A stretch of 64,000 nt of DNA from positions 1 to 64,000 of the forward strand of contig JAUNAB010000005.1 in the NCBI GenBank assembly GCA_030527795.1, written 5' to 3'. The notes below the pieces were generated by a model. The model saw only the letters and a program-made list of their open reading frames with translations. It was not told the origin of the DNA and ran no database searches. The DNA is from Pasteurellaceae bacterium. GTDB taxonomy: Bacteria > Pseudomonadota > Gammaproteobacteria > Enterobacterales > Pasteurellaceae. Position 1 is the first letter of the stretch; each line of letters opens with the position of its first letter. This document shows, piece by piece, positions 20,551 through 24,052 of the stretch. The position numbers were made by a program, and so were the translations under genes.

Positions 20551-22590
20551 TTATTCACTAAAAACAAAAGATTCTCTTAATTGTTGTAATTGATCACGTA
20601 AGGCAGCCGCTTTTTCAAATTCCAAATCTTGTGCAAATTTATACATTTGTTGCTCCAATTTTTTGATTTGTTGTTGTGCTTCTTTCGCACTACGAGGACT
20701 ATGATAATCAGCGGTTGGCTCGTTGATGGTTTTTCCACGCTGTTTATTTGCTTTCGCTTTGTTATTTACACTTTGACCAATATCCAGCAACTCACCCACT
20801 CTTTTGTTTAATCCTTGCGGTACAATGCCGTTTAACTCATTGTATTTCATTTGTTTTTCACGGCGGCGATTGGTTTCAGTAATGGCTTTTTCCATTGAGT
20901 TAGTTACCCGATCGGCATACAAAATTGCTTTGCCTTTCAAGTTTCGAGCAGCACGCCCAATAGTTTGAATTAGCGAACGTTCAGAACGTAAAAACCCTTC
21001 TTTATCCGCGTCTAAAATTGCCACTAACGACACTTCGGGAATATCTAATCCTTCGCGTAATAAGTTGATCCCCACTAGTACATCAAACTCGCCTAAGCGT
21101 AAATCGCGGATAATTTCAACACGTTCAACCGTATCAATATCACTATGTAAATAACGAACCCGAATGCCGTGTTCATCAAGATAATCCGTTAAATCTTCTG
21201 CCATTTTTTTCGTCAAGGTAGTAACTAAAACGCGTTCATTTTGATCCGCACGTTGACGGGCTTCTGAAAGCAAATCATCCACTTGAATAGCCACTGGGCG
21301 AATTTCAATCTCAGGATCAAGTAAGCCAGTCGGGCGTACTACTTGATCAATAATTTCACTGCCCGATTTATCTAATTCATAAGGCCCAGGGGTTGCAGAT
21401 ACATAAATCGTTTGCGGTGCTAAACGTTCAAATTCTTCAAAACGCAATGGACGATTATCTAACGCAGAAGGCAAGCGAAAACCGTATTCCACTAAGGTTT
21501 CTTTACGCGAGCGATCGCCACGGTACATTGCACCAATTTGTGGCACAGTAACGTGAGATTCATCAAGGATCAACAAGGCATCAGACGGCATATAATCAAA
21601 CAACGTAGGGGGCGGATCGCCTTCTTTTCGCCCCGACAAATAGCGTGAATAATTTTCAATTCCAGAGCAATAGCCCAATTCATTCATCATTTCAATATCA
21701 AATTGGGTACGCTGAGTAATTCGCTGTTCTTCAAGTAATTTATTGCCATCAATAAACTGCTGACGGCGTATGGCTAATTCTTGTTTAATTTGCTCAATCG
21801 CATCTAAAATACGTTCGCGTGGGGTCACATAATGGCTTTTAGGGTAAACCGTAAAACGTGGCACCGCACCAAAATTTTTTCCCGTTAGCGGATCAAATAA
21901 ACTTAACCGTTCAATTTCATCGTCAAACAATTCCACTCGCACTGCACGATCATCCGATTCCGCAGGGAAAATATCGATCACTTCTCCACGCACACGAAAT
22001 GTCCCACGCTGAAAAGCCTGATCATTGCGAGTATATTGCAATTCCGCCAATTTAGACAATATCTGGCGTTGATCAATAATAGCTCCTTTTTGCAAATGCA
22101 ACATCATTTTCAAATAACTATCAGGATCGCCTAAACCGTAGATTGCCGATACCGATGCCACTACAATGGTATCTCGCCGTTCTAAAAAAGATTTTGTTGC
22201 TGACAATCGCATTTGTTCAATTTGATCATTGATTGCCGCATCTTTTTCAATGAAGGTATCGCTACTCGGCACATAGGCTTCAGGTTGATAATAATCATAA
22301 TAAGATACGAAATATTCCACTGCATTTTCAGGGAAGAAGGCTTTCATCTCCGCATACAATTGTGCTGCCAAGGTTTTATTCGGTGCCATAATCATCGCTG
22401 GACGATTGAGTTGGGCGATTACATTGGCAATGGTAAAGGTTTTCCCCGATCCCGTTACCCCCAATAGCGTTTGATGTGCCAAGCCATCATCCAGATTTTC
22501 AACTAATTTCTGAATGGCTTGTGGTTGATCGCCCGAAGGTTGGAAATCGGAATGCAGAATAAAAGGTTTGCTATTAATTCGATGTGACAT
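20551..22590 (-). CDS. uvrB: Excinuclease ABC subunit B
   Basis: UvrB is the damage-verifying helicase-like subunit of nucleotide excision repair. The 679-residue product has the Walker A motif [10 protein letters not shown], the beta-hairpin region [21 protein letters not shown], helicase motifs ILDESHVT and [11 protein letters not shown], and the C-terminal UVR domain ([27 protein letters not shown], residues about 635-665, quoted in part) that binds UvrC. Length is as expected. I could not find a convincing LexA box upstream. The upstream 430 bp are non-coding and hold inverted DnaA boxes. Confidence 0.97.
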
Positions 22591-22943
22591 TGCTATTACT
22601 GATCATAATTCAAGTACTCGCATTTTAGCACAAAATATGGCAAAACGGCATCACTAAAAAAGTAGGTTTTACACAGGGTTAGCAATGTCAAGTTATTTCG
22701 TTGAAAAAATTATTCATTTTTGTGACAAAAACACTGGAAAAATCATAACCTATTGAAAAATAAAATAATGACATTTTGCAACCAATCACTATTTTTATTT
22801 ATAAAAACCCTGTTTTCATCAGGCATAAGCGATTTATTCAAAAGAAATTTCACAGAGTTATCCACAATTAATGTGGATAGAAACGGGTATCCATTTCATT
22901 CCATAAAAATCGTAAAAATATTTAAAGTTTTTGCAAAATCCGC
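22591..22943. other. Non-coding region upstream of uvrB
   Basis: This AT-rich stretch has no supported gene; a 64-codon frame at 22753-22947 has no ribosome site or family resemblance. It contains three DnaA-box-like 9-mers (22667, 22858 and 22872) described separately, and presumably the uvrB promoter. Confidence 0.6.
22858..22880. promoter_or_regulatory. Inverted DnaA boxes, DARS1-like candidate
   Basis: TTATCCACA (22858-22866) is a perfect DnaA box. TGTGGATAG (22872-22880) is a reversed box with one mismatch, so TATCCACA and TGTGGATA form a perfect inverted repeat with a 5-bp spacer. A further box-like TTTTACACA is at 22667-22675, and a weak half box lies at 22844-22852. In E. coli the DnaA-reactivating sequence DARS1 lies upstream of uvrB (bioD-uvrB gap) and is built on a cluster of DnaA boxes with an inverted pair. 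The matching position makes this a candidate counterpart. Confidence 0.5.
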
Positions 22944-23020: not shown

Positions 23021-23096
23021 TCCTCCTTAGTTCAGTCGGTAGAACGGTGGACTGTTAATCCATATGTCGCTGGTTCAAGTCCAGCAGGAGGAGCCA
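23021..23096 (+). tRNA. tRNA-Asn (GUU)
   Basis: The 76-nt sequence folds as a cloverleaf: acceptor TCCTCCT with AGGAGGA, D-arm with AGTTCAGTCGGTAGAA, anticodon loop CTGTTAA with GTT at 23054-23056, T-arm GGTTCAAGTCC, discriminator G and an encoded CCA. It closely resembles E. coli tRNA-Asn. Confidence 0.97.
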
Positions 23097-23160
23097 ATTT
23101 TATCTTTCGAGCAGTTTTTATTTGTCTCCTTTTGTAAAAACTATCAGTATCGGAAGATTT

Positions 23161-23192
23161 TAGCCCGAACTTTTCGGGCTTTATTTTTTATC
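23161..23192 (+). terminator. Rho-independent terminator of tRNA-Asn
   Basis: AGCCCGAA and TTCGGGCT form a tight hairpin followed by TTATTTTTTAT, 65 bp past the tRNA and before the EamA gene start at 23208. Confidence 0.75.
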
Positions 23193-23207: not shown

Positions 23208-24052
23208 ATGAACGATTATCAACTTTCAGTCTTAAAAGTTCATTTTACCGCACTATTATTTGGGCTGACTGGCGTCTTTGGGGTATTAATCCAAGCTGGC
23301 TCTGATGTATTGGTGCTAGGGCGTTTACTTATTGCTTTCGCCACACTCAGTGTTTATTTCCTTTGGCGGAAACAACCCATTGTACGCCTAAACCGCGGTC
23401 AAATTTTCAATCAAATTTCGGTACATTACTCATATTACACTGGATTACCTTTTATATCGCAGTCAAAGTTGGCGGCGTGGCAATGGGTACCTTAGGCTTT
23501 GCTAGCTTTCCCGCATTCGTTGCCCTATTTGAGATGATCGCATTTCGTGAAAAATTAAAACAACGTGAAATAGTGTTATTGCTCATCATTTCTGCAGGTT
23601 TAATTCTTATCACGCCTCAATTTGAATTTATCAATCTTGCCACGCAAGGTTTACTGTGGGGCATTTTATCTGGAGCAATCTACGGCGTGCTTGCGGTTCT
23701 CAATCGCAAAACAATGCGAAATCTCTCAGGCACACAATCGAGTTGGTGGCAATATTTAGTCGGTTCATTACTCTTATTGCCTTTTTCAGCCCATAAATTA
23801 ACCGCGGTATCCACGCAAGATTGGGTTTGGATTGCCTGCATTGGCTTGCTTTGCACCAGCTTAGCTTACACGATCTTTGTATCCAGTTTGCAACATATCA
23901 ATGCCCGCACCGCATCAATGATAATCTCCCTTGAACCCGTTTACGCTATTTTAATTGTGTGGGCTTGGTTAGACGAACAGCCCACTTTGCGAATGGCACT
24001 CGGCGGAGCATTAATTATCGGTGCGGTAGTATTGGCTAATCGTAAAAAATAA
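23208..24052 (+). pseudogene. EamA/DMT-family transporter, frameshifted at an uptake-like element
   Basis: The product should be a drug/metabolite-type transporter of about 280 residues with ten membrane helices. The start MNDYQLSVLKVHFTALLFG (ATG 23208) and the rest (LHWITFYIAVKVGGVAMGT to LGGALIIGAVVLANRKK, ending 24052) lie in different frames. Adding one A in the CAAATTTT run just after the ACCGCGGT element at 23393 joins the two into LNRGQNFQSNFGTLLILHW. Both halves keep normal codon use and family sequence, so the lesion is recent, a slippage switch, or a sequencing error. Substrate unknown; solutes such as amino acids are typical for the family. Confidence 0.75.

Follow-up and report, generated by a model that had tools for sequence, protein, structure and literature searches.

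Does the DNA upstream of uvrB in the Pasteurellaceae contain a counterpart of E. coli DARS1, a site that recharges DnaA? The question is raised by one non-coding gap in a contig of a Pasteurellaceae bacterium, of which a stretch of 64,000 nucleotides (the window) was analysed. The gap is 430 bp long and is bounded by uvrB (20551..22590, minus strand) and a tRNA-Asn gene (23021..23096, plus strand). A first-pass annotation of the letters alone had noticed an inverted pair of DnaA boxes there, TTATCCACA and TGTGGATAG with 5 bp between them, and a further DnaA-box-like TTTTACACA about 190 bp away. It had proposed a possible Pasteurellaceae DARS1 with uvrB still in place and tRNA-Asn standing where bioD would be. 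The pair does lie at 22858-22866 and 22872-22880, the further box lies at 22667-22675, all of the boxes fall within the gap, and the gene coordinates agree. The proposal itself has gained support from a core layout identical to that of E. coli, from its direction toward uvrB and from its conservation in the family. The element at 22667-22880 is, very probably, a Pasteurellaceae DARS1 that would recharge DnaA with the aid of IHF.

The three-box core and its surroundings

The defining core of a DARS is three DnaA boxes, spaced alike in DARS1 and DARS2, with box I opposed to boxes II and III (PMC5742627). In E. coli K-12 the bioD-uvrB gap reads, toward uvrB, TTATCCACT attcc TGTGGATAA cca TGTGTATTA, and the DARS2 core near rppH reads TTATTCACC ttttc TGTGGATAG agt TGTGAAGAA. 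The window site, read toward uvrB on the minus strand from 22880 down to 22846, is CTATCCACA ttaat TGTGGATAA ctc TGTGAAATT. It likewise has three boxes with 5- and 3-bp spacers and an opposed box I. Box I (22872..22880, minus strand; TGTGGATAG on the forward strand) has the place and orientation of E. coli DARS1 box I. Box II (22858..22866, plus strand; TTATCCACA as written forward) is separated from it by the 5-bp gap ATTAA, and box III (22846..22854, plus strand; AATTTCACA as written forward) follows 3 bp beyond box II. All three are close to the DnaA-box consensus, with one mismatch in box I, none in box II and two in box III (to TTWTNCACA). In the family box III has the form TGTGrrTTA, and it has at most one mismatch in 25 of 38 genera.

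This means that the earlier description of the box cluster stands for the inverted pair and fails for the third box. The adjacent AATTTCACA is box III, which had been missed, and TTTTACACA, which had been counted as the third, is an additional conserved box. The interval 22667-22880 that was given nevertheless happens to enclose the whole conserved element, box III included. TGTGGATAGaaaCGGGTATCC, between the pair and the tRNA gene, was also considered as box III and rejected as a poor match that is not conserved.

Could DnaA-box-like words, which are common, simply have clustered here by chance, the intergenic DNA being AT-rich? Single boxes are indeed frequent, and the window holds 38 TTATCCACA-like 9-mers at up to one mismatch where 20 are expected. 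However, the box I/II pair at up to three mismatches occurs in the 1.95-Mb genome only at this site and at one weak match, in line with the earlier judgement that layout and position together go beyond chance. A genome scan with the three-box core likewise gave one match at one mismatch, which is the same site on the other strand, and one weak match elsewhere. Since single boxes are common and the pair is rare, it is the paired layout that is informative and not the single boxes. In addition, the reversed pattern has zero matches in 50 genomes and the position is conserved across families. Conservation has already refuted chance clustering, which is left with almost no probability.

Two other features of the neighbourhood lie beyond the tRNA gene. 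A known-RNA search of the locus returned only the tRNA at its gathering score. Downstream of it, 23123-23187 gave a sub-threshold match to a Betaproteobacteria toxic sRNA (30.2 bits against a gathering score of 50), which may be just a terminator hairpin. An EamA/DMT-type transporter gene beside the tRNA (23210-24052) is apparently split across two frames near 23415, be it as a pseudogene, by phase variation or by sequencing error.

Conservation, the extended element and separation from uvrB

The pair pattern is matched in 140 of 140 Pasteurellaceae genomes, and the stricter three-box core of DARS type in 50 of 50 genomes representing 43 of 43 genera. Neither a pair that is missing from relatives nor an abundance of similar pairs in the genome, either of which had been named in advance as fatal to the idea, was seen. 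With the DARS1 and DARS2 classes separated by sequence, the DARS1 type is recognised in 41 of the 43 genera. In the sampled genomes of the other two (g20 and g28) only a DARS2-type core and weak matches are recognisable, and these genomes (G069, G089 and G091) are possible cases of natural DARS1 loss.

The suggested comparison of uvrB upstream regions was made by locating uvrB in 136 genomes and reading the upstream region in representatives. The core is near uvrB in about 26 genera, mostly 275-420 bp upstream (290 bp in the window), and always reads toward uvrB. The boxes of these uvrB-linked cores are nearly invariant whereas the 5-bp spacer varies, and the conserved third box that had been sought is the AATTTCACA site. 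tRNA-Asn is found beyond the core in the uvrB-linked genomes tested. Nevertheless, the tRNA gene is a neighbour and not a functional feature.

Conservation does not stop at the core. The conserved element is about 215 bp long (22667-22880) and adds three features to the core: about +121 there is an IHF consensus, near +189 a TTGACA and near +205 a fourth DnaA box. In the window the IHF-consensus site TTTCAATAGGTTA (22746..22758, minus strand), with one mismatch to WATCAANNNNTTR, is at +122, the TTGACA (22686..22691, minus strand) is at +189 and the fourth box TTTTACACA (22667..22675, plus strand) is at +205. Copies that are linked to uvrB and copies that have been relocated agree on these positions: +120 to +122 for the IHF consensus, +188 to +190 for TTGACA and +202 to +206 for the fourth box (TGTGyAAAA). 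In a tabulation of 38 genera with one sequence per genus, box II is present in all 38, 37 have an IHF consensus with at most one mismatch at +119 to +124, where equally wide control windows gave about 0.5 of 38, and in 34 the fourth box has the exact consensus.

What if the boxes serve uvrB instead? A DnaA-dependent operator, at which bound DnaA represses or times uvrB transcription without any recharging of DnaA, has a precedent in E. coli, where DnaA represses uvrB through these same boxes (PMC6015884), and the element is upstream of uvrB in some 26 genera. However, two observations do not fit. One is that the distance to the uvrB start varies and the internal spacing does not: in uvrB-linked genomes box II and the fourth box are 191-194 bp apart, whereas the distance from the fourth box to uvrB ranges from about 84 to 215 bp. 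The other is that some 16 genera in which uvrB is far off still have the element, with its internal spacings constant. An operator acting alone is very improbable, although an operator role and a DARS role can coexist. The search for ordinary uvrB control signals bears on the same region. TTGACA was considered as a uvrB -35 element and rejected, for inspection found no acceptable -10 at 16-18 bp and TTGACA is kept where uvrB is absent. A promoter search reported no minus-strand promoter in the uvrB/tRNA-Asn gap. No LexA box (CTG-N10-CAG) was present upstream of uvrB in the window or in seven relatives, with one found in the K-12 positive control, and no Fis consensus held a constant position across the 38 genera.

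In the 16 or so genera without the linkage, uvrB has other neighbours and no core upstream, and a DARS1-type core is present at other loci. The relocated copies keep the IHF site and spacings in nearly all cases and the fourth box in most. One of them, in g2, is between putP and a gene for an IclR-type regulator, with putP adjoining in g21 as well; ten loci in ten genera are beside a methyltransferase gene; and in g37 the core is beside gyrB and rpsB; these are examples among several such places. In g13 and g29 the core is still beside tRNA-Asn with uvrB elsewhere. Constant internal spacing combined with a variable uvrB distance is unexpected of a uvrB operator and makes a separate function probable; in other words, this DARS1 element is probably not merely an operator. 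Genera in which it lies far from uvrB are natural experiments that separate a replication role from the control of uvrB.

The chromosomal position of the element bears on another possibility, namely that this is a site of the datA type, a DnaA box, an IHF site and a DnaA box that would titrate DnaA or promote ATP hydrolysis and lower ATP-DnaA rather than raise it. DnaA boxes do flank the IHF site, as they do in datA (PMC5742627). On the other hand, datA is oriC-proximal in E. coli (PMC4585315), whereas in complete genomes the site is mid-arm or further from oriC. With mnmG as the oriC proxy, its fraction of the ori-ter arm in 23 relatives (the genome of the window itself is in 24 contigs) is 0.68-0.97 where it is linked to uvrB (13 genomes) and 0.35-0.82 otherwise (10 genomes), compared with 0.66 in E. 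coli. Moreover, the spacing and orientation of the three-box core are exactly those of a DARS, and its E. coli orthologue, next to uvrB, reactivates DnaA. This makes a datA-like role very improbable, somewhat more so than that of an operator.

Proposed mechanism, host proteins and a second core

How might a DARS1 element work here? ADP-DnaA would bind the opposed boxes I and II, and also box III. The AAA+ domains of two DnaA molecules would then meet head to head and loosen the ADP, after which the empty DnaA would be released, take up ATP and be ready for the start of replication at oriC. Bending of the DNA by IHF at about +121 probably carries the fourth DnaA box closer to the core. The conservation of the site suggests that such a bend might make DARS1 activity IHF-dependent, as at E. 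coli DARS2. Binding of DnaA and IHF, nucleotide exchange and an effect on replication timing at the element are all things that we infer from its sequence. Some points do count against a DARS1 reading: the box III of the window is weak, bioD is missing from the other side of the element, the sampled genomes of g20 and g28 have no recognisable DARS1-type core and E. coli DARS1 works without IHF.

The host's own proteins can be set beside this scheme. Its DnaA is 59% identical to that of E. coli, and in an alignment R227, R281, R285 and L290 are conserved, whereas K stands opposite R399, another residue cited for DNA binding. A further short match to the DnaA family is probably Hda. Three genes of the HU/IHF family are present in the genome, two of them beside rpsA and pheT, where ihfB and ihfA are usually found.

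Most genera also have a second core, TTATTCAnn-N5-TGTGGATAA-N3-TGTG or of the TTATCCCCA type, upstream of rppH and reading away from it, like E. coli DARS2. These DARS2-type cores have their IHF consensus most often at +96 or +107, where E. coli has it at +93 and +109. For the genome from which the window comes, TTATGCCATTTGCCTGTGGATAAAGTTGTGGTTGA beside coaD (G000:C12:44212-44246; L171, about position 1501) is tentatively the best candidate. It shares a contig with rppH but is some 5 kb from that gene and not directly upstream of it, and has an IHF-like site at +96. With both DARS-type sites placed in the Pasteurellaceae, the DnaA recharging cycle becomes testable outside the E. coli group. 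One more inverted DnaA-box-like pair, TTATTCACA-N5-TGTGGATAACTTCGTG, was observed near xseA and mltA (L175, about 5884, in g2; L256, about 3001, in g20). In g2 it adjoins ParA- and DnaB-like genes and could belong to an integrated element.

The order Enterobacterales and the E. coli systems

The earlier suggestion that DARS control would be newly extended to this family is correct only in part. A review citing the 2009 discovery paper already reports conserved DARS1- and DARS2-like sequences in many proteobacteria (PMC10380432), and conservation of DARS2 to Vibrio and Shewanella is documented (PMC8682772). Yet no treatment of DARS in the Pasteurellaceae was found in the literature searched, a search outside which the species coverage of Fujimitsu 2009 lay. 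Orthology therefore extends what is known, whereas the IHF site of DARS1, the fourth box and a life apart from uvrB were not found described and appear to be new.

Across the order the core is present in 82 of 119 genomes drawn. The smallest genomes (0.2-1.4 Mb) are without it, in line with relaxed replication control in what are presumably endosymbionts. The 83 DARS1-type cores outside the Pasteurellaceae are mostly linked to uvrB where this was checked. Of the 83, 49 have an IHF consensus with at most one mismatch within +116 to +125, compared with 1.5% per control window; one core (L337) was read on the wrong strand, which can only lower this count. The exact consensus is found in 22 of 83 against 0.3%. 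These order-wide counts come from sequences that are related to each other. Many other families of the order also have the site, at +119 to +122; the Vibrionaceae and several others are without it.

E. coli DARS1 has been reported to be IHF-independent (PMC4245941, PMC8407004), and in K-12 only a remnant with two mismatches, TTTTAACTGGTTA, is present at +121. K-12 appears to have lost an ancestral DARS1 IHF site. The conserved site suggests that DARS1 may work without IHF only in K-12 and a minority among its relatives. Perhaps DARS1 was ancestrally under IHF control across the whole order (a core, then IHF at about +121), with K-12, the sole system studied, a derived exception, and the Pasteurellaceae added a fourth DnaA box, giving a 215-bp module that is complete in itself and persists when separated from uvrB. 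The odds on this broader idea seem to us about even.

How, then, does the window site compare with the E. coli systems? Its sequence, its architecture, its orientation toward uvrB and its conservation allow it to be called a DARS1 orthologue with high confidence. It shares with E. coli DARS1 the three boxes, the 5- and 3-bp spacers, the opposition of box I to boxes II and III and the direction toward uvrB. It differs in its distance from uvrB (290 bp, compared with 419 bp in K-12), in its neighbour (tRNA-Asn instead of bioD), in having CTATCCACA as box I and a weaker box III, and in carrying, at +122 and +205, a conserved IHF consensus and a fourth DnaA box. Like E. coli DARS2, it has a core followed on the same side by an IHF consensus (+93 and +109 in E. 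coli) and a further DnaA box (+211). However, DARS2 is at another locus, E. coli DARS2 has essential Fis sites and the Pasteurellaceae own a separate DARS2-type core. Like datA, it has an IHF site between DnaA boxes, but datA lacks a DARS core, is oriC-proximal and promotes ATP hydrolysis; here a DARS core is present and the sites of relatives are not oriC-proximal.
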